From the NCBI RefSeq assembly GCF_006517815.1, contig NZ_CP041198.1:3472001-3536000 (forward strand): a DNA stretch of 64,000 nucleotides, in the 5' to 3' direction. The number at the start of each line of letters is the position of its first letter. Within the stretch, counting starts at the first letter, position 1. The notes beneath the pieces were generated by a model that was given only the letters and a program-made list of their open reading frames with translations, searched no databases and was not told the DNA's origin. The translations under genes were made by a program, and so were the position numbers. Below, piece by piece: positions 23,749 to 33,012 of the stretch. The DNA is from Pseudarthrobacter sp. NIBRBAC000502770 (GTDB taxonomy: Bacteria; Actinomycetota; Actinomycetes; Actinomycetales; Micrococcaceae).

Positions 23749-24354
23749 ATGACCCCTCGCGAAGCACCAACCTACGAGCCGAGGCACTACCAAGCCGGAT
23801 GGCGGTTGAAGCCGCGCCCGTGGCCTGTTGGCCCCAGCGAGAGCTACGGCAAAGTGGACTTTGACGACAGCGAGGGAAAGACCGTCCTCACCCTCTACAT
23901 CCAGCGCGCGCCCGAAGAAGGTTACGTCCTCCACGTCGAGCACTTAGGCGCGCCGTTACGGGTGGACGGCACGCTCCTTCGCCTGAGCCCGGTTCCCACC
24001 GTGAACAGGCAGGCCGCGGACTACCGCCGGATTTCCGCGGCACGTACGGCTGCCGCGAAGGCCGAGGCCGAGCTCGAAGCAGCAGTCAGCGCCGCGCGCG
24101 CGAAGGGCGACTCGTGGGGGGGGTTATCGGTGCCGCCCTCGGCACATCCGCCCGAGCTGCCCGGGAGCGGTTCGGACACCACTAAGCCAACTCACACCTT
24201 GAAGTACTTGGCCTCCGGGTGGTGGAACACGAACGCGTCGGTGGACTGCTCGGGGTGCAGCATCAGCTCGTCGCTCAGGATGACGCCCATGCGCTCGGGC
24301 TTCAACAGCTCGGTGACCTTGCGGCGGTCCTCCATGTCAGGGCAGGCGGGGTAG
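23749..24354 (+). CDS. Hypothetical protein in the segment inserted at the metH 3' end
   Basis: This 201-residue frame matches no family I recognise. Residues 1-90 look like a normal protein (HYQAGWRLKPRPWPVGP, KVDFDDSEGKTVLTLYIQ, YVLHVEHLGAPLRV), followed by a short Ala/Glu-rich helix (AARTAAAKAEAELEAAVSAAR). AAGGAG lies about 12 nt before the ATG. From about residue 148 (THTLKYLAS) the frame enters the metH repeat and then runs antisense through metH, so the last 50 or so residues are probably not part of the ancestral protein. The gene lies wholly within the segment bounded by the two 27-bp repeats except for that tail. Function unknown. Confidence 0.5.
   Translation: MTPREAPTYEPRHYQAGWRLKPRPWPVGPSESYGKVDFDDSEGKTVLTLYIQRAPEEGYVLHVEHLGAPLRVDGTLLRLSPVPTVNRQAADYRRISAARTAAAKAEAELEAAVSAARAKGDSWGGLSVPPSAHPPELPGSGSDTTKPTHTLKYLASGWWNTNASVDCSGCSISSSLRMTPMRSGFNSSVTLRRSSMSGQAG
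24191..24217. repeat. 27-bp direct repeat, proximal copy at the end of metH
   Basis: This copy forms the true 3' end of metH (stop codon at 24192-24194, minus strand). It matches 23566-23592 exactly. Confidence 0.85.
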
Positions 24355-27300
24355 CCCAGCGAGAACCGGGCACCGCGGTAGTCCAGCTTGAAGTACCCTG
24401 CTGTGTCCTTGGGCTCCTCGGACGCGAAGCCGAGCTCCTTGCGGATGCGGGCGTGCCAGAACTCGGCCAGCGCCTCGGTGAGCTGCATGACCAGGCCGTT
24501 GAGTTCGTAGTAGTCGCGATACTGGTTTGCCGCGAACATCTTGGACGTGAACTCTTCGATCCTGGAGCCGGCGGTGACCAGCTGGACCGGCAGCACGTCG
24601 ATCTGGCCGGACTCGCGGGACTTCACGAAGTCGGCGAGGCACAGGTGCCGGTCGCGGCGCTGCCGTGGGAAGTCGAACCGCAGGCGGTCGGTGCCGATCG
24701 GGCCGCCTGAACCACCGTCCGGGGCAAGCAGACCTGCCTGGCCCAGGACGCCGTCGGGATCCTCTCCGTGGTGCAGCACCACCACCTGCTCACCCTCCGA
24801 GACCACGGGGAAGTAGCCGTAGGCGACGGACGCATCGAGCATGCCTTCGCCCAGGATGCGGTCCAGCCAGTAGCGCAGGCGCGGCCGGCCCTCGCGTTCC
24901 ACGAGTTCCTCGTAGGAGGCGCCGTCCTCGCCGCGGCCGGGCTTGAGGCCCCACTGGCCCATGAAGGTGGCACGCTCGTCGAGGAACGCGGAGTAGTCGT
25001 GGAGCGAGACGCCGCGGACGATCCTGGTGCCCCAGAACGGCGGCACGGGGACGGGGTTGTCGGTGGCGACGTCGGAGCGGCCGGGCATGGCCTCCGGCTC
25101 GGTGATGGTGAACTTCGCCCCGCCCTTGTGGATGCGCTTCTTCAACGGCGGCAGGCCGACGTCGTCCGGTGATTCACCGCGGGCCACGCGGACCAGTGGT
25201 TCCATGAGGGACAGGCCCTCGAAGGCGTCCTTGGCGTAGCGGACCACGCCGTCGAACTGCTCCGCCAGGTCCTGCTCCACGTAGGCGCGGGTGAGTGCCG
25301 CGCCGCCCAGGATGACCGGCCATTTCTTGGCCAGGCCGCGGGACTGCAGCTCGGCGAGGTTTTCCTTCATCACCACGGTGGACTTGACCAGCAGGCCGGA
25401 CATGCCGATCACGTCGGCGTTGTGCTGCTCGGCTGCGGCGATGATCTCGGCGATGCCCTGCTTGATGCCGATGTTGATGACCTTGTAGCCGTTGTTGGTG
25501 AGGATGATGTCCACCAGGTTCTTGCCGATGTCGTGCACGTCGCCGCGCACGGTGGCGATCACCATGGTCCCCTTGCCGGAGGAGTCCGACTTCTCCATGT
25601 GCGGTTCGAGCAGCGCGACGGCGTTCTTCATCACCTCGGCGGACTGCAGCACGAACGGCAGCTGCATTTCGCCGGCGCCGAAGCGTTCGCCCACCACCTT
25701 CATGCCCTCGAGCAGGTGGTCGTTGATGATGCCCAGCGGGGTCATGCCTTCGCTGCGGGCCAGGTCCAGGTCTGCTTCGAGGCCCTTGCCTTCGCCGTCG
25801 ATGATGCGCCGTTCCAGCCGCGCGCCGGTGGGCAGGGCCGCGAGTTCGGCGGCGCGCTGGTCCTTGAGCGCTGCGGTGTCGACGCCGGCGAACATGTCCA
25901 GCATTATGGCCAGGGGGTCGTAGGTGGTGTTGCCGTCGGCGTCGTATTCGCGGCGGTCCCAGACGAGGTCCAGGGCCACCTTGCGCTGCTCATCGGGGAG
26001 GGAGGCGAGCGGGACGATCTTGGCGGCGTCGATGATGCCGCTGGTCAGGCCGGCCTGGACGGCCTCGTGCAGGAACACGGAGTTCAGGACGATGCGCGCG
26101 GCGGGGTTCAGGCCGAAGGAGACGTTGGAGACGCCGAGGGTGGTGTTGATGCCGGGGTATTTGGCGGTGATCTGGCGGATGGCCTCGATGGTTTCGATGC
26201 CGTCGCGGCGGGTTTCCTCCTGGCCGGTGGCGACGGGGAAGGTGAGGCAGTCGACGATGATGTCCTCGACCCGCATGCCCCAGTCGCCCACCAGGGCGTC
26301 GACGAGGCGGGAGGCGATGGCCACCTTGCCTTCGGTGGTGCGGGCCTGGCCTTCTTCGTTGATGGTCAGGGCGATGACGGCGGTGCCGTGTTCCTTGACC
26401 AGGGGCATGATGCGGGCGAAGCGGCTGTTGGGGCCGTCGCCGTCCTCGTAGTTGACGGAGTTGACCACGGGGCGGCCGCCGATGAGTTCCAGGCCGGCCT
26501 GCAGGACGGGCGGTTCGGTGGAGTCGATGACCAGCGGGAGGGTGGAGGCGGACGCGAAGCGGGAGACGATTTCCTTGACGTCCGCGACGCCGTCGCGGCC
26601 CACGTAGTCGACGCAGACGTCCAGCAGGTGTGCGCCGACGCGGATCTGTTCGCGGGCGATGTCCACGCAGTCGTCCCAGCGCTCCTCGAGCATGGCCTGG
26701 CGGAAGGCTTTGGAGCCGTTGGCGTTGGTTCGCTCACCGATAGCCAGGTACGCGGATTCCTGGTCAAAGTTCACGTGCTGGTAGAGGGAGGCGACGCCGG
26801 CCTCGCGCTCGGTGGGGATTCGCGCCGGTGCTGTTTTGTCCCCTGCCGCGGCCACGGCTTTGGTGCGGAAGGGCGCCAAACGTTCGACGACGGCGGCCAT
26901 GTGCTCCGGCGTCGTACCGCAGCAGCCGCCCACCAGGCCCAGGCCGAATTCGCGCACGAACTGCTCGTGCGCGGTGGCGAGTTCGGTGGGGGTGAGCGGG
27001 TAGTGTGCACCGTTGGCGCCGAGGATGGGCAGGCCGGCGTTGGGCATGCAGGCGATGGCGACGGAGGACTGCTTGGCGAGGTGGCGGAGGTGCTCGCTCA
27101 TCTCGTCCGGGCCGGTGGCGCAGTTCAGGCCGATGGCGTCGACGCCGAGCGGTTCCAGGGCGGTAAGCGCGGCGCCGATTTCGGAGCCCATGAGCATGGT
27201 GCCGGTGGTCTCGACCGTCACCTCAACGAAGATGGGGAGGCGGACGCCCTTGGAGACGATGGCCTGCTTGCAGCCGTTGACCGCGGCCTTAGTCTGCAGG

Positions 27301-27839
27301 AGGTCCTGGCTGGTTTCGATGAGGAAGGCGTCCGCGCCGCCGTCGATGAGGCCCTCTGCCTGGAGGGCGAAGGTCTGCTTGAGGTAGTCGTAGCTGGTGT
27401 GGCCCAGGCTGGGGAGCTTGGTGCCGGGGCCCATGGAGCCGAGGACCCAGCGCATGCGGCCGTCTGTTTCCTCTGCAGCTTCGGCCCGTTCGCGCGCGAT
27501 CCTGGCGCCCTTTTGTGCGAGCTCGGCGATGCGGTCATCGATGCCGTAGTCGGAGAGGTTGGACCAGTTGGCGCCGAAGGTATTGGTTTCGACCGCGTCG
27601 ATGCCCGTGGCGAAGTAGGCGTCATGGATATCCGCAATGACGTCCGGACGGGTGTCGTTGAGGATCTCGTTGCAGCCTTCCAGGTTCTGGAAGTCCGTTT
27701 CGAGCGAGAGGTCCCGGCCTTGCAGCATGGTGCCCATGGCGCCGTCGGCAATGACCACCCGCTGGTTCACGGCGTCCAGGAGTTCCTGGGCACGGGCGGG
27801 GCGGGGGACGGACTCGATGTCCAGTGCGAAACGAGGCAT
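24192..27839 (-). CDS. metH: Cobalamin-dependent methionine synthase
   Basis: The 1215-residue cytosolic enzyme transfers the methyl group of 5-methyl-tetrahydrofolate to homocysteine through methylcobalamin. Modules in order: homocysteine domain (about 10-330, zinc ligands in LNCATGPDE and GGCCGTTPEH), pterin domain (about 350-630, GERTNANGSKAFR), cap and B12 domain (about 660-890, with DVHDIGKN near 766 whose His binds cobalt), and the AdoMet reactivation domain (about 920-1215, with GYPACPD). All modules are complete. The ATG lacks a ribosome binding site; TAACCT lies 5 nt upstream, so the message may be leaderless. No cobalamin riboswitch was seen upstream. An ECF importer, possibly for cobalamin, lies 2.7 kb away. 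Confidence 0.97.
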   Translation of the reverse strand: MPRFALDIESVPRPARAQELLDAVNQRVVIADGAMGTMLQGRDLSLETDFQNLEGCNEILNDTRPDVIADIHDAYFATGIDAVETNTFGANWSNLSDYGIDDRIAELAQKGARIARERAEAAEETDGRMRWVLGSMGPGTKLPSLGHTSYDYLKQTFALQAEGLIDGGADAFLIETSQDLLQTKAAVNGCKQAIVSKGVRLPIFVEVTVETTGTMLMGSEIGAALTALEPLGVDAIGLNCATGPDEMSEHLRHLAKQSSVAIACMPNAGLPILGANGAHYPLTPTELATAHEQFVREFGLGLVGGCCGTTPEHMAAVVERLAPFRTKAVAAAGDKTAPARIPTEREAGVASLYQHVNFDQESAYLAIGERTNANGSKAFRQAMLEERWDDCVDIAREQIRVGAHLLDVCVDYVGRDGVADVKEIVSRFASASTLPLVIDSTEPPVLQAGLELIGGRPVVNSVNYEDGDGPNSRFARIMPLVKEHGTAVIALTINEEGQARTTEGKVAIASRLVDALVGDWGMRVEDIIVDCLTFPVATGQEETRRDGIETIEAIRQITAKYPGINTTLGVSNVSFGLNPAARIVLNSVFLHEAVQAGLTSGIIDAAKIVPLASLPDEQRKVALDLVWDRREYDADGNTTYDPLAIMLDMFAGVDTAALKDQRAAELAALPTGARLERRIIDGEGKGLEADLDLARSEGMTPLGIINDHLLEGMKVVGERFGAGEMQLPFVLQSAEVMKNAVALLEPHMEKSDSSGKGTMVIATVRGDVHDIGKNLVDIILTNNGYKVINIGIKQGIAEIIAAAEQHNADVIGMSGLLVKSTVVMKENLAELQSRGLAKKWPVILGGAALTRAYVEQDLAEQFDGVVRYAKDAFEGLSLMEPLVRVARGESPDDVGLPPLKKRIHKGGAKFTITEPEAMPGRSDVATDNPVPVPPFWGTRIVRGVSLHDYSAFLDERATFMGQWGLKPGRGEDGASYEELVEREGRPRLRYWLDRILGEGMLDASVAYGYFPVVSEGEQVVVLHHGEDPDGVLGQAGLLAPDGGSGGPIGTDRLRFDFPRQRRDRHLCLADFVKSRESGQIDVLPVQLVTAGSRIEEFTSKMFAANQYRDYYELNGLVMQLTEALAEFWHARIRKELGFASEEPKDTAGYFKLDYRGARFSLGYPACPDMEDRRKVTELLKPERMGVILSDELMLHPEQSTDAFVFHHPEAKYFKV

Positions 27840-28141
27840 TTAATCAGGTTACGTGTGGGGGCGCCAACGTTGCGCTGTGTGTCCGGATGCTACGGCAGCT
27901 GGGGCAGCCTGGATGTGACGACGGTATTCGCACATCAACACGTCTCCACATCCCAGTAGTCGACGGCTTGGACTCTAGTCGTGATGCACTTTTCGCAAGG
28001 CGAACTCCACGAAAGCGGTAATAGATCGAAGATCTCTTTTGCTAACCTCCGCCCGGCCCGGGAGCCGTTCCGCGGTTATAGGACTACCGCATATAATCAA
28101 GGCACAGTAGATGAACTAAGCAACTACATTCAAGGGGAAAT
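27840..28141. other. Intergenic boundary between metH and the lower-GC island
   Basis: This 302-bp gap separates metH (minus) from a small membrane gene (plus). Base composition changes here: from about 27960 A/T-rich stretches appear (for example GCATATAATCAAGGC near 28090, which contains a good -10-like TATAAT at 28092-28097). No gene was seen in it. It is the likely left edge of the acquired island. Confidence 0.5.
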
Positions 28142-28564
28142 GTGGACTTTACACCGTTTATGGCTGGCGCTCCGGCGGCGCTGGCTACAGTCGCCGGTTT
28201 TGCCGCAATTATTGTCGCTTTGGGAATTTTCTTCGAAGCTATTGGCACTGCGGAGGAAAAAGCAGCTTCCCAGCCAGTCCTCAAGCAAATGCGTACGATA
28301 GCAATGGCGTTTAAAGCGTTCGGAGGCTTGGCAGCCCTTTTTGCGGCAACTCTCGCGTTGGCTTCCGCCGACCAGTTGAAACCCTACGGATGGCCAATTG
28401 CGATCACTCTGCTAGCAATAATCGTGTTCTTATGTGTAGTCATCTTGATCGCCGCCCGACGCGTCGCGGACCTAGGTCCCGCTAACATCACGACCACCAG
28501 TCCCGTCAATTGCGAAATCTGCGGGCACTCCGTGGCAACTATTCATACAATAGCGACACACTAA
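28142..28564 (+). CDS. Small three-helix membrane protein, unknown function
   Basis: The 140-residue protein has three hydrophobic segments (about residues 8-35, 53-76 and 84-107) and a C-terminal cytosolic or external tail ending with CEICGH, a Cys-X2-Cys pair that could bind metal. The GTG start has AAGGGG 5 nt upstream. Codon use has many A- or T-ending codons, unlike metH and other neighbours, which fits recent acquisition. It lies at the left edge of a small island with a nuclease-like protein and a kinase. In defence systems small membrane proteins of this size often act as effectors, but nothing in the sequence proves that here. Confidence 0.6.
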   Translation: MDFTPFMAGAPAALATVAGFAAIIVALGIFFEAIGTAEEKAASQPVLKQMRTIAMAFKAFGGLAALFAATLALASADQLKPYGWPIAITLLAIIVFLCVVILIAARRVADLGPANITTTSPVNCEICGHSVATIHTIATH

Positions 28565-28866
28565 CGCAGAGTTGCGAGGTATTCGCAGGGTACCTTCGGC
28601 ACTTTGGTTGCCGTCATTTTGAGTCATTCGAGCGTCTCCGAACAAGGCAGCCTAGGGAACGCGACGGACCTTCGGGAATCGATGACGGAACCCCCTACTC
28701 TTTGAACCTGAACCTCGACGCGCGCCCCTGTCTCCGTCTACGCCCCACCACGACCGTGCAGCGACAGCATAAGCTCAGCGCTCAGGTGCCATAGGCTTGT
28801 GCCGCAACCCTATGAAATCGAGCTGAGCATTGTTCATAACAACCCAGAATCTGGCAGAATTATAGT
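28565..28866. other. Gene-free stretch inside the island
   Basis: This 302-bp gap between two plus-strand genes has low GC and no frame that looks coding. CAGAAT at 28855-28860 lies 6 nt before the next GTG and could be its -10 box. Nothing else was recognised. Confidence 0.4.
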
Positions 28867-29661
28867 GTGACCGAAGTACACGTACATCGAACGACACGCT
28901 CACGTGCCGGACGCCGGTTCATAGCCGTGCAAGAAGCGGAGCTCTATCCCGTCGCAATTGAGGCTGCAAGGCGCCTACCGGGGTCATCGGCAGGCGGCGT
29001 ACTTGTTGTTCCGGAAATGTCAGGCCCCCTTGGCGTCCCCGATTTTCTAGCTATCGTCGGCGGACGCCGCGCTCTGGAAAGGCGCCTAGACTCAGGGATA
29101 CCACCACTACTCAACGAAATGGACTGCAGTATTATCGCGGCCCTGTATCCGTCGCGACCAAAATCCTTAGAACGCTTGACCCTGGAACTCGGGTTACCAG
29201 AGGAGTACACCAGAACGCGAATTCTTGGACTTAAAAAAAGGGGCGCGGTGCTGCCGACGCCTTCAGGAAAATTCGTGAGGCATGAGGCACTTAGTAGTTC
29301 CGGTACCTTGTACGCCATCGAGACAAAAGTCCGCGATTGGCAGCAAGGATTACGTCAGGCGCGCGGTTACCGAACCTGGGTCACTAACTACGTCTTAATT
29401 TTTGGTCCGCTCGGACCACAGAGTACTGAATCCATAAAAGCTGAGGTCACTGCTGACGGAGCGGGACTTATTGTTGACGGGAAATGGCAGCATAGACCCT
29501 CTTCCCGGAAATTACGACCCCAAAAAGCACTATTGGGATTCGAGCACCTGGTGGCTTCGCTCGAAAATTACCAACCCTCTCCCCGGATAAACAATTCCAC
29601 GCCATCCAGCAATGGGGCAACCCAAGAAGTCCCACCCGCAGCGCAGCCCGATATCCTTTGA
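28867..29661 (+). CDS. Winged-helix protein with PD-(D/E)XK-like nuclease domain, unknown
   Basis: The 264-residue protein has no recognised family name. Around residues 95-140 (SLERLTLELGLPEEYTRTRI, LKKRGAV) it looks like a winged helix-turn-helix. Residues about 150-185 (YAIETKVRDWQQGLRQARGY, then YVLIFG) match the core of restriction-endonuclease-like folds, with E-T-K as the ExK motif and the following helix rich in conserved Q and Y; GVPDF near residue 56 could supply the PD acid. A DNA-cleaving or DNA-binding role is therefore plausible. The GTG has no ribosome binding site. Its last 94 bp overlap the convergent gene at 29568. Codon use is atypical for the window. Confidence 0.6.
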   Translation: MTEVHVHRTTRSRAGRRFIAVQEAELYPVAIEAARRLPGSSAGGVLVVPEMSGPLGVPDFLAIVGGRRALERRLDSGIPPLLNEMDCSIIAALYPSRPKSLERLTLELGLPEEYTRTRILGLKKRGAVLPTPSGKFVRHEALSSSGTLYAIETKVRDWQQGLRQARGYRTWVTNYVLIFGPLGPQSTESIKAEVTADGAGLIVDGKWQHRPSSRKLRPQKALLGFEHLVASLENYQPSPRINNSTPSSNGATQEVPPAAQPDIL

Positions 29662-30722
29662 GCCTCAGGCCACTCCTTCAAGGCGTCCGAATACCACGCC
29701 TGCAATTGACGAACTCTTGCCTCGCCTGATAGCTGGTTTAAGTTCTCAACCGCTTCCGCTAGGACACGAATATGGTGTTGAAAAGCTTCTCCAGGCGTAT
29801 CGATAAAGTGACCAGGCGTAAGTCGCTGGGCTAGTGCTTGATCCTGATCTAGGAGAACGTTGTACTCGTTAGTCGACATTGCACCAAATAGGCCCCCCAA
29901 GGTGGGGCGTTTGTACCAAGAGCCAAAATCGCTCCCGTTGAGCGGCCTCGCGACATAATCTGTGTAAGAACAAACGCGCTGTCGAATGTCGCCCCCGGAA
30001 CCGATGGTCTTTGCACCTGCAGCTACGCCTGGTAGCCCAGCAAAATCGCCGTGGCCAATGATGACAGGGCGATCTTGGCTCAAGGCGAACACGGTGCGCA
30101 TCATTCCGGCTATTTCTTCGCCATGAGCCGCCACCGGGATCGTCGATTGCGGACGAACGACTGAGACCATCCACCCTGCGGGTTCAAGTTGATCCAAGAC
30201 ACCGATGTGGGCGTCAAGGTCAGCTCCAGAAGCCCAAAACTGCGAGTCACCCACTATGGAAAGCCACACGTCACGGCTTCCCGCTTCACTCCGCGCTACT
30301 TCTGCGAGGTCAATGGCCTGCAGGCTCTTCTGGCTCTGGGAGCTGTGCAGCAAGACTGTCGGGCCGAGAAGGGGCACTCCGAGCTGGTCCTGGATGTTAA
30401 AGACCCGACGCACGTGCTCTCGCTGGTCCGCGGCGGTTTCCAATCGGTTTCGGTCTCCGGACCACAGGTCCCATTCGTCATAATAACGAAAATCCCCCGC
30501 TTGCGGCATTTGCAGGGCGTGCGTGGTGGGATCAAACCAAAACTCACCGCCAGCCTTCCGAATTCTGTCCGCTATTCGTGTCGCATCAATCTTGTAACTG
30601 TTGCCAGTTTTTGGGGAGCTGAACGGCGACAGTATAGCCCCGGCAGCGGTCCCTCGCTTCAAGCCGGTTGTAGTCCATCCCGCCAAAGTATTCCGCGCGG
30701 TGTCTTGTATGAGAACGCTCAT
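29568..30722 (-). CDS. Unknown protein coupled to a protein kinase gene
   Basis: The 384-residue soluble protein matches no family I can name. Alternating strands and helices (LGVPLLGPTVLLHSS, DVWLSIVGDSQFW, PVIIGHGDFAGLPGVAAGA, TIGSGGDIRQRV) suggest a TIM-barrel-like fold with a Gly-rich phosphate-binding loop, somewhat like tRNA-guanine transglycosylases, but key residues could not be assigned. Its ATG overlaps the TGA of the kinase gene (ATGA at 30719-30722), so the two are translated together and probably work together. It ends 94 bp inside the convergent nuclease-like gene. It may be a substrate or effector of the kinase; this is inference. Confidence 0.6.
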   Translation of the reverse strand: MSVLIQDTARNTLAGWTTTGLKRGTAAGAILSPFSSPKTGNSYKIDATRIADRIRKAGGEFWFDPTTHALQMPQAGDFRYYDEWDLWSGDRNRLETAADQREHVRRVFNIQDQLGVPLLGPTVLLHSSQSQKSLQAIDLAEVARSEAGSRDVWLSIVGDSQFWASGADLDAHIGVLDQLEPAGWMVSVVRPQSTIPVAAHGEEIAGMMRTVFALSQDRPVIIGHGDFAGLPGVAAGAKTIGSGGDIRQRVCSYTDYVARPLNGSDFGSWYKRPTLGGLFGAMSTNEYNVLLDQDQALAQRLTPGHFIDTPGEAFQHHIRVLAEAVENLNQLSGEARVRQLQAWYSDALKEWPEAQRISGCAAGGTSWVAPLLDGVELFIRGEGW

Positions 30723-31552
30723 TTCGTTCCCTCCAGAGCTACTCGCAGGGCATCTCCATTTCGGTATCTACGGGCAGGCTGGGGGTGCAGAGCTCTTTCA
30801 ATAACAGCCAACAGTTCTGCCGGATAATCCGAACGCACCTGGGCTAGGGGAGTGTAGTGCCCGGCGCTAAGCCTTGTGATGTACTCCGCATCGTCCCCCT
30901 TGTACGGATACGGTGCGAATCCCGTCGCGGCAAAGTACATCAACTGACCCACGGCAAAGACATCTGAGGCAGCAGTAGGGCCCGTATACGCCTGTAAGTG
31001 CTCGGGCGTCATGAAGCCACGAGTCCCCGGCTGCCCTCCGACGGTCAGTCCGGTACGAAGGGTGTGCTTAGCGAATCCGGGGTCCATCACCTTGTACGTC
31101 CCATCCGCGAGCCTTCGGACATTGCTGGCACTCAGGTCCCTGTGGACCACCTGCTGCAAATGTAGGGCAGAAAGCCCGGCGGATACGGCTATGCCCATCT
31201 CCCGGACCTCGGCTGCCGGCCAAGGTCCACCGAGGAAGTCGCTTAGGTCGCCCCCATCCAGAAACTCCTCCATCCAAGCTGCTCCGCGCACGGGGTTGCC
31301 AAGCTCAGTTAGGGGCGAAACGACCTTGACGACATTGGCGTGCTCGGTTCCGGCCAGAAGCGCGACTTCCCTTCGCGCGCGCTCAAGAGCATTTGGCTCG
31401 GCCGCCGGAATTTCGACTAGTTTGAGTACCCGGGAAACGCCCTCGTGATCCACCAGATGCACAGTTTTTTGGCCTCCGGCCTTGAGGTCTCGAATCAAAG
31501 TTATTCCGAGCTCATCGAGTGCCAGCTTGAGCAGCGCCGCTTCATTCCCCAT
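30719..31552 (-). CDS. Hanks-type serine/threonine protein kinase, soluble
   Basis: The 277-residue protein is a single kinase domain without membrane segment. Visible are the ATP-binding Lys in RVLKLVEI, the helix C Glu in ERARREVALL, the catalytic loop HRDLSASN (near residue 134), the metal-binding loop as DPG rather than DFG (VMDPGFAKH), an activation segment with GTRGFMTPEHL in place of APE, and SDVFAVGQLMYFAATG. Catalytic residues are present, so it should be active. I chose the ATG at 31552 because TAGGA lies 8 nt upstream; in-frame ATGs up to 31657 are possible. Coupled to the next gene by ATGA overlap. It lacks the PASTA or TM parts of housekeeping actinobacterial kinases. Confidence 0.8.
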   Translation of the reverse strand: MGNEAALLKLALDELGITLIRDLKAGGQKTVHLVDHEGVSRVLKLVEIPAAEPNALERARREVALLAGTEHANVVKVVSPLTELGNPVRGAAWMEEFLDGGDLSDFLGGPWPAAEVREMGIAVSAGLSALHLQQVVHRDLSASNVRRLADGTYKVMDPGFAKHTLRTGLTVGGQPGTRGFMTPEHLQAYTGPTAASDVFAVGQLMYFAATGFAPYPYKGDDAEYITRLSAGHYTPLAQVRSDYPAELLAVIERALHPQPARRYRNGDALRVALEGTK

Positions 31553-31562
31553 GGACGGAATC

Positions 31563-31808
31563 CTAATCGACGGAGGCGAACAAACCGGAATCATGTTTCG
31601 ACCGGTGCGCTGTTTCAGCCTCGGACCCCGAAGCAGCAAACTCATTAAGCCGAGCATACGAACGGTCCACGTACGTCGCCCGCACGCGAGGTTGTCCTGG
31701 ACGGTCTCGCCAAACAGTAATGGGTTCCATCCGCAAGCGCAGGTCGTGCCGGGTCATGTTGGTGCTACCCACGCCGTCCAGCGTGATCTTGCTCGTACCC
31801 GCGTGCAC
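31563..31808 (-). CDS. Possible small protein (81 residues) upstream of the kinase
   Basis: A GTG-started frame of 81 residues ends at TAG 31563-31565, just 10 nt before the preferred kinase ATG; the TAG is part of the kinase's ribosome binding site (TAGGA). The product is basic and polar (TRHDLRLRMEPITVWRDRPG). No ribosome binding site was found for the GTG. The tight spacing argues for a real first gene of the kinase operon, but a chance frame is not excluded. Confidence 0.3.
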   Translation of the reverse strand: MHAGTSKITLDGVGSTNMTRHDLRLRMEPITVWRDRPGQPRVRATYVDRSYARLNEFAASGSEAETAHRSKHDSGLFASVD

Positions 31809-31959
31809 TCAACAAGAGCCATTGTCTAGTCCGGTTCCACCACAAACCCGAGGTTAGAAATCAGCGACTTGTCCGGCGATTATGCGAAGGTTACGCTTCA
31901 AATAAAAGCCTGCCGCGCTGACCGCACGGCCGCTGACGATGACGCAAAGGGTTGCATCC

Positions 31960-33012
31960 CTACCGCAACGACCCCGACCCCTCACCCGGAGCCCAACCCA
32001 GAGCCGGCCCCAATTTGCCCGCGATATCGGTAAGGATCTGGACGTAGTCCTCGTGGTCGAAGCTGAACGGAAGCGCGAACGCCACCTCATCCACTTCCTG
32101 GAAACCGGCGTGGGAGTACAGCTTCTCCGCGATCTCCTCGCTGGTGCCGATGAGGTCGGCGGCAAACATCATGCCCCTCGGCCCCTGCGGAGAAGCGGTG
32201 CGCGGCGTGCGTTCGTCGACGTACCGCTGGTACTTCTCCCGCTGGGTCGGAGTCGCCGAGTCGGTCGGAATCACCACCAACCCCTGCGAGACCCGCGCCT
32301 GAACATGCCCGGCAGCAGCAGCCGCTTCCCGGAACGCCCGGATCTGCGACTGCTGGACCAAGGCGAAGTCCGGTTCCTGGTCCTTGCCGGGGAAGATCAC
32401 GCTGCTGGAGAGCAGATTGAAGCCATTGGCCCCGGCCCATATCGCTGACTTCGTACTCCCGGCTCCGTACCAAAGGCGCTCACGCAGCCCCGGTGAATGC
32501 GGCTCCACGCGGTTGGAGAACTCCTCCACCACGCCGTGCTTGCCGGAAAATTCCCGCACCGGCTCACCCGCCACCAGCCGCGCAAACCGCTCCACGCGGG
32601 CGTAGCTGAAATCCTCCACGTCCGCCGTATCCGGGTACAGCTCATGCTTCACGGTGTCGTACTGCATCGGCTCCCCAACGCTTACGCCTGGGTTGATGCG
32701 TCCACCGGCGAGCAGGTCCACTGTGGCCAGGTCCTCGGCCAGGCGCAGAGGGTTTTCCCAGCCCAGCGGCGTCACCGCAGTGCCCAGTTCAATCCGCGAG
32801 GTCCGTTGGCTCGCCGCCGCCATCACCGCGACAGGAGAAGAGATGCCGAACTGCAGGTGCCGGTGGCGCAGCCAGGCACTGTCGAACCCCAGTCGCTCCC
32901 CCAGTTCGATGATTTCCAGCGTGGATTCATGGCCCGCAGCCGGATTGGCGGGATCAAAGAGGCCAATAGTGAGGAATCCCAGCTTGCGCAGGGGACGGTC
33001 GGGGTGCGGCAT
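31960..33012 (-). CDS. LLM class flavin-dependent oxidoreductase
   Basis: The 350-residue luciferase-fold protein has segments typical of alkanal monooxygenase-like members: LGFLTIGLFDP at the start, ERLGFDSAWLRHRHLQFG, IELGTAVTPLGWENPLRLAEDLATVDLLAGGRINPGV, and the C-terminal DLIGTSEEIAEKLYSH. The group uses reduced flavin and oxygen; the substrate is unknown. GAAGGA lies 7 nt before the ATG. GC content and codon use return to the genomic norm here, so this gene marks the right-hand side of the island. It is divergent from an alpha/beta hydrolase gene. Confidence 0.8.
   Translation of the reverse strand: MPHPDRPLRKLGFLTIGLFDPANPAAGHESTLEIIELGERLGFDSAWLRHRHLQFGISSPVAVMAAASQRTSRIELGTAVTPLGWENPLRLAEDLATVDLLAGGRINPGVSVGEPMQYDTVKHELYPDTADVEDFSYARVERFARLVAGEPVREFSGKHGVVEEFSNRVEPHSPGLRERLWYGAGSTKSAIWAGANGFNLLSSSVIFPGKDQEPDFALVQQSQIRAFREAAAAAGHVQARVSQGLVVIPTDSATPTQREKYQRYVDERTPRTASPQGPRGMMFAADLIGTSEEIAEKLYSHAGFQEVDEVAFALPFSFDHEDYVQILTDIAGKLGPALGWAPGEGSGSLR

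Follow-up and report, generated by a model that had tools for sequence, protein, structure and literature searches.

The window analysed here is a stretch of 64,000 nucleotides from Pseudarthrobacter sp. NIBRBAC000502770 (assembly GCF_006517815.1, contig NZ_CP041198.1, positions 3,472,001 to 3,536,000 of the forward strand), and the element in question is a set of three adjoining genes encoding a protein kinase, a predicted barrel protein with the fold of tRNA-guanine transglycosylases (TGT) and a predicted nuclease. They lie between metH and a flavin oxidoreductase gene, as follows (positions are those of the window).

28867..29661, plus strand: PD-(D/E)XK-like nuclease (predicted), 264 residues, with a winged helix at residues 82-144 between D59 and E152-x-K154
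29568..30722, minus strand: predicted TGT-fold TIM-barrel protein, 384 residues, translationally coupled to the kinase
30719..31552, minus strand: Ser/Thr protein kinase, 277 residues from the ATG at 31552, PF00069 at E=3.9e-24
29568..29661, no strand: 94-bp stretch in which the converging TGT-fold and nuclease genes overlap at their 3' ends, as convergent modules do in 23 of 27 cases
24192-27839, minus strand: metH, left border of the low-GC block
31960-33012, minus strand: flavin oxidoreductase gene, right border of the low-GC block
27900..31987, no strand: variable slot between metH and the oxidoreductase gene, with different defence-like cargo in five related genomes
28142..28564, plus strand: three-segment membrane protein, 140 residues, CEIC at residues 124-127; slot cargo

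The guanine-plus-cytosine (GC) content of 27960-31850 is 0.566 versus 0.670 for the whole window, and 106 other 3.9-kb stretches of the window have a mean of 0.677 and a minimum of 0.648. At third codon positions (GC3) the content is 0.553 in the membrane protein gene, 0.517 in the nuclease gene, 0.582 in the barrel gene and 0.626 in the kinase gene, and 36 long genes outside the block have a mean of 0.846 and a minimum of 0.655. An earlier note on this DNA had described a low-GC island with atypical codon use, which agrees with values below all the stretches and genes compared, and the translations and motifs of the four products match its description of them. The compact convergent block adjoining metH that it had seen, with coupled kinase and alpha/beta genes, was also found, the overlaps being 4 bp (30719-30722, kinase and TGT-fold genes) and 94 bp. 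The window genome belongs to the same family as Arthrobacter sp. 260 (G145, whose contig carries locus L019).

The kinase, TGT-fold and nuclease genes are one conserved three-gene module. The nuclease and TGT-fold genes are found together in 38 of 38 loci (24 of type A, 4 of type B and 10 of type C), which were found partly via the nuclease and partly via the barrel, and the kinase gene accompanies them in 37; the sole locus without it (L022) is on a contig that begins inside the barrel gene. Most of the protein matches (one set of 122 and, among the candidates scored, 1345 to the type C profile) lie outside this neighbour count. Homologues scattered in unrelated contexts, named by the earlier note as one sign against its proposal, were not encountered for the kinase, barrel and nuclease at these loci. 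When genome contigs were scanned by pattern with the barrel alignment, 22 loci emerged; their carriers include Serinicoccus, Clavibacter, Nocardioides, Brachybacterium, Streptomyces, Microbacterium and a single Chloroflexi metagenome-assembled genome (MAG). The nuclease gene is convergent behind the barrel gene in all 22, and in 21 the barrel gene is preceded by the kinase gene. With starts as set in the analysis, 23 of 29 modules have a 4-bp overlap of these two genes. Across 21 type A modules the pairwise protein distances, which keep species relatedness in, correlate with r of 0.92 for kinase and barrel, 0.86 for barrel and nuclease and 0.82 for kinase and nuclease, and none of 2000 permutations is as high.

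The membrane protein, which the earlier note had counted as a fourth component, has no relative in any of the 22 loci of the barrel scan and is present in 1 of 41 genomes of the genus, its own. It was rejected as a system part on these grounds; the proposal of one system holds for the other three genes, and the system is described as one of three genes because the membrane protein is no part of it.

Type A is the type of the window. In a sample of 396 genomes from the phylum, a nuclease profile matched 41, in most cases across the winged helix alone; the six matches that were followed (G000, G492, G662, G340, G335 and G459) all have an adjoining kinase and barrel. Three of them, G662, G340 and G335, are divergent relatives with a kinase gene and a barrel-like gene beside each nuclease gene, and the type A barrel profile does not detect their barrels. 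Type B comprises G662, G340 and plasmids of Kineococcus and Arthrobacter FB24, and type C comprises G335, Natribaculum and Polaromonas plasmids, G459, G552 and five viral contigs. The type C genes run in one direction in the order nuclease, kinase, barrel. Comparison of barrel profiles links type A with type C (E=3.2e-8, probability 95%, 332 columns) and type B with type C (E=3.7e-9, 96%). The residue counts out of 37 below come from the aligned modules, which include the near-duplicates L005, L006 and L007 (barrels 93-97% identical) and L117 and L119 (99%).

Judged by its motifs, the kinase qualifies as an active Ser/Thr protein kinase (Lys, Glu, HRD, Asn, D-x-G): the helix-C Glu, HRD, Asn and D-x-G are kept in 37 of 37 modules and the Lys in 36, and the activation-loop Thr (T170) is kept in 37 of 37 complete modules. 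The window kinase carries DPG, not DFG. The longest kinase frame starts at 31657 (30719-31657, 312 residues), and the ATG at 31552, which gives 277 residues, is taken as the start because the type A homologues have 276-309 residues, with one exception of 383. The kinase domain is shared with PD-T4-6 and other PADLOC defence kinases (best match E=1.5e-33), matches that are generic to the kinase fold, and the module kinase differs from them by its two fixed partners.

The nuclease is a predicted member of the PD-(D/E)XK superfamily, with the D...ExK residues placed on the common core fold in the structure prediction, and D59, E152, K154 and Q164 are kept in 37 of 37 complete modules. It differs from PaqCI and SPO1766, which have PD-(D/E)XK-type folds, by a winged helix inserted inside the nuclease domain. 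A Z-DNA-binding role of this helix was considered and rejected, as Zalpha domains score like many MarR and Lrp domains and inspection by eye showed no Zalpha signature residues. The nuclease frames of L125 (169 residues) and L127 (147 residues) are short as called and have the motif residues. The nuclease of the Kineococcus plasmid (L070:7434-8195) is annotated as a BadM/Rrf2 family regulator, and that of Arthrobacter FB24 (L071:7846-8679) is missing from the PLSDB gene table.

The barrel had been called an unknown alpha/beta protein in the earlier note; alpha/beta is right, and "unknown" gives way to a predicted TIM barrel most like tRNA-guanine transglycosylases, which exchange bases in tRNA. 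The predicted structure has the TGT fold, and the barrel differs from these enzymes (PF01702) in being only 8-12% identical to them among the matches listed. PF01702 is absent at E<=1 for the barrels of the window and of L060, L061 and L062. In TGT enzymes the catalytic Asp pair lies on strands 3 and 8 and the zinc site is CxCxxC...H. With positions assigned by strand order and local motifs, not by superposition on a TGT, both Asp are kept in 41 of 41 type A (A1) sequences, and the strand-3 Asp, D64, in 34 of 37 complete modules; the strand-8 Asp, assigned to the position of the TGT nucleophile, is absent from types B and C and from the type A copy of Dietzia. CxCxxC is present in 4 of 4 type B barrels, and the barrels of types A and C differ from tRNA-guanine transglycosylases by lacking these cysteines (0 of 41 and 0 of 27). 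P33 and G243 are kept in 37 of 37 modules and H316 in 35 of 37. None of the 120 listed matches of the type C profile has a Pfam domain. A protein of G239 was tried as a barrel relative (E=4.4e-6) and rejected; the match covers 118 residues and the frame reads by eye like an SGNH-type esterase.

The module is sparse among genomes and is carried by mobile elements. A full-length barrel match is found in 2 of 295 genomes of its own family (its own and G145), the type A barrel in 2 of 396 genomes of the phylum sample and type C in 3 of 392. Copies are present on a mobilizable Dietzia plasmid beside mer genes, on the Kineococcus plasmid, on a conjugative Arthrobacter plasmid, on the Polaromonas plasmid and on one archaeal plasmid; upstream of the archaeal copy a 1339-residue frame (L069:2-4021) resembles, by eye, a restriction-methylation enzyme of type IIG or PglX-like kind. 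A search with an alignment found the type C module in five viral contigs, and searches with the single L062 sequence in viral contigs and with the L062 nuclease in plasmids gave zero matches. Three of the five viral contigs were examined for phage genes: L118 carries clear baseplate genes, L119 shows a weak match to a tape-measure protein, and four genes of L120 have zero PHROG matches.

The surroundings of the module include defence-like genes. In G335 the type C module is inside a BREX operon: a PglXI methylase (1441 bits) flanks it on one side and a BrxHI/HII helicase (1473 bits) on the other, and farther out are genes that by eye resemble PglZ and BrxC. Around 19 type A loci, 103 flank genes hit 14 models of PADLOC at 1e-30, including DrmC, DrmD, PDC-S28, AbiD, an RmuC-type model and an HKD+Snf2 model, and 109 control genes of 18 stretches from carrier genomes match one. 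These flanks also hold resolvases, relaxases and transposases, an observation without a control.

In this genus, the slot bounded by metH and the oxidoreductase gene appears to be a hotspot for defence genes, with five different defence-like sets in five relatives. Of 40 other genomes of the genus, 23 have an oxidoreductase orthologue (83-95% identity), and among eight relatives fetched metH is 2.2-7.2 kb away on the expected side in five (L089, L091, L092, L094 and L095); L090, L093 and L096 are uninformative because metH is absent from the fetched stretch. The five intervals have other genes, with a GC content of 0.51-0.57, and in 5 of 5 at least one protein matches PADLOC at 1e-5. The cargo includes an ATPase with a TIR domain (TIR_2 2.5e-9; PDC-S59 1e-19), an ORC/CDC6-like ATPase together with a HEPN protein and a PDC-S60-like protein (5e-14), HEC-04 (8e-204) and two PD-Lambda-5 A-like proteins (L095:4299-9673; 2e-31 and 3.5e-17). 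Beside this last pair are short frames which read by eye like a DNA adenine methylase. L091:5888-10115 encodes an SMC-like ATPase (Ppl 8.7e-25), a HATPase-domain protein and a receiver-like plus APH/TCAD9 protein, which are possibly another undescribed system. Near the oxidoreductase end, a 111-bp stretch (31778-31888) is 71% alike in G177 despite different cargo and is perhaps part of the slot edge.

The earlier note had taken the block, with its kinase and PD-(D/E)XK-like nuclease, for a candidate defence system not yet described, a proposal that gains support from co-occurrence, mobility, the BREX copy and the slot cargo. The module very likely has a defence function. More specifically, it is probably an anti-phage (anti-invader) system. 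Its kinase and predicted TGT-fold barrel would form the sensor and switch that license the predicted winged-helix nuclease to cut DNA. The barrel would bind a nucleobase or nucleic acid linked to infection, after which the kinase would phosphorylate the nuclease, or relieve its inhibition via the winged helix inserted in the nuclease domain; and the licensed nuclease would degrade the DNA of the invader or of the cell. This particular order of events, from barrel binding to kinase to nuclease, is put forward tentatively.

Several results weigh against this reading. The TGT relationship finds zero sequence link when the type A or type C barrel is aligned by hhalign with a two-sequence TGT alignment, and the direct comparison of the type A and type B barrel profiles is weak (E=2.8e-4, probability 41%). 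Shared ancestry of the carrier species may contribute to the distance correlations. The type A barrel has zero matches in phage records or viral contigs. The defence signal of the type A flanks is modest because a single gene may account for several of the 14 models, and the slot scan covers 10 genes which were chosen by eye among the listed frames of the five slots and which have no control at 1e-5; only two slot matches, HEC-04 and one PD-Lambda-5-like protein, pass 1e-30.

Carrier genomes bear on what the barrel may do with a base. The 24 carrier handles are 23 genomes (G145 and G313 are one genome with identical coordinates), several of them incomplete MAGs. Full-length QueC is present in 1 of the 23 (G300) and a PF01702 TGT in 6, and the QueC family PF06508 is above its cut-off in 10 of the 24 handles, nine of the matches being partial, of which one spans positions 1-177 of 210. 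The QueC and TGT counts argue against a barrel that writes 7-deazaguanine supplied by the cell and, together with the variable strand-8 Asp, they favour a barrel that would bind a base and not exchange it. Some phages put 7-deazaguanines into their own DNA, and PMC6884629 describes phages with such DNA. A bolder version of the anti-invader reading, which is doubtful, is that a TGT was turned into a nucleobase sensor that would read modified bases (such as phage 7-deazaguanines) or altered tRNA and, via the kinase, would unlock the nuclease split by the winged helix, as an undescribed and widespread immune system of bacteria and archaea.

Among the alternatives, the one that survives best, although it is unlikely, is an addiction module similar to toxin-antitoxin pairs, in which a nuclease toxin would be checked by the kinase and the TGT-fold protein; the module would last on plasmids and prophages by killing cells that lose it, and defence would be no more than a by-product. 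The copies on plasmids and viral contigs are consistent with this, and the convergent overlap of nuclease and barrel genes in most convergent modules could silence the nuclease. Against it are the chromosomal copy in a slot with other defence-like genes, the type C copy inside the BREX operon and the conserved catalytic motif of the kinase, which a mere antitoxin would not need. Addiction and defence roles often overlap.

A restriction-modification system similar to Dpd, in which the TGT-fold protein would write 7-deazaguanine into host DNA and the nuclease would cut unmarked DNA, is improbable. The predicted fold of the barrel and the two Asp kept throughout type A (A1) suit such a writer, and PMC12839542 describes the pairing of a TGT homologue with nucleases in Dpd. 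The scarcity of full-length QueC and of PF01702 enzymes among the carriers, several of which are incomplete MAGs, and the absence of the strand-8 Asp from types B and C and from the Dietzia copy argue against it. A regulatory or RNA-modification operon outside defence, in which the winged-helix protein would be a regulator and the barrel would modify tRNA or a nucleotide, is still less probable: single nuclease relatives are named transcriptional regulators in source annotations and the barrel fold is that of tRNA enzymes, but the nuclease signature kept in all complete modules is needless for a regulator, and the scattered mobile occurrence and defence-type surroundings also oppose it. The four-gene version of the earlier note, in which the membrane protein would be one of the system's effectors, is hardly credible in view of the distribution of that protein, in spite of its place in the same low-GC slot and a weak KwaA match (E=0.0036).

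The anti-invader system that remains preferred has partial likenesses to known ones. TGT homologues occur in Dpd and BREX-related capture (BRC) systems, according to PMC12839542. The module resembles Dpd (DpdA) by a TGT homologue beside a nuclease and differs by the kinase in its three-gene set, from which DpdB and DpdC are missing, by a window barrel that has no PF01702 match, by the strand-8 Asp that varies among types and by the rarity of a QueC supply; the PADLOC Dpd models are matched by neither the barrel nor the nuclease. BREX type 2 with PglW (a kinase plus a NERD nuclease) also joins a kinase and a nuclease in one defence context, and the type C copy of G335 is a further likeness to BREX, but in the module the kinase and nuclease are separate proteins with a TGT-fold partner. 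The BREX core genes PglZ, BrxC and PglX are absent from the window slot, where no frame outside the four genes is long enough. BRC likewise has a TGT homologue in a predicted defence locus, and the HerA/FtsK, PglZ, STAND NTPase and GNAT that belong to BRC (PMC12839542) are missing among the three genes of the module.

No model of PADLOC-DB 2.0.0 matches the barrel or nuclease at E<=1 (window) or E<=0.001 (L060, L061 and L062). The combination of kinase, TGT-fold protein and nuclease is undescribed in the literature searched, a scope that leaves out separate preprints and supplements and most subscription papers. The parts are known folds and defence is a known kind of function, and the gene set fits no named system among those compared.

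For the genus, the metH slot is a practical place to search for further systems. If the module is defensive, it would be a new immune module, known to date from Actinomycetota, viral contigs, a Chloroflexi MAG and two plasmids, one betaproteobacterial and one haloarchaeal. Hypothetical proteins of a large family, represented here by the type C profile matches, would thereby gain a role. The module would also combine a base-handling fold and a nuclease with a switch based on phosphorylation. The question raised is whether a TGT barrel can be a sensor, and not a writer, of modified bases; if the sensor reading is true, a family that writes modified bases would have become their reader in immunity.

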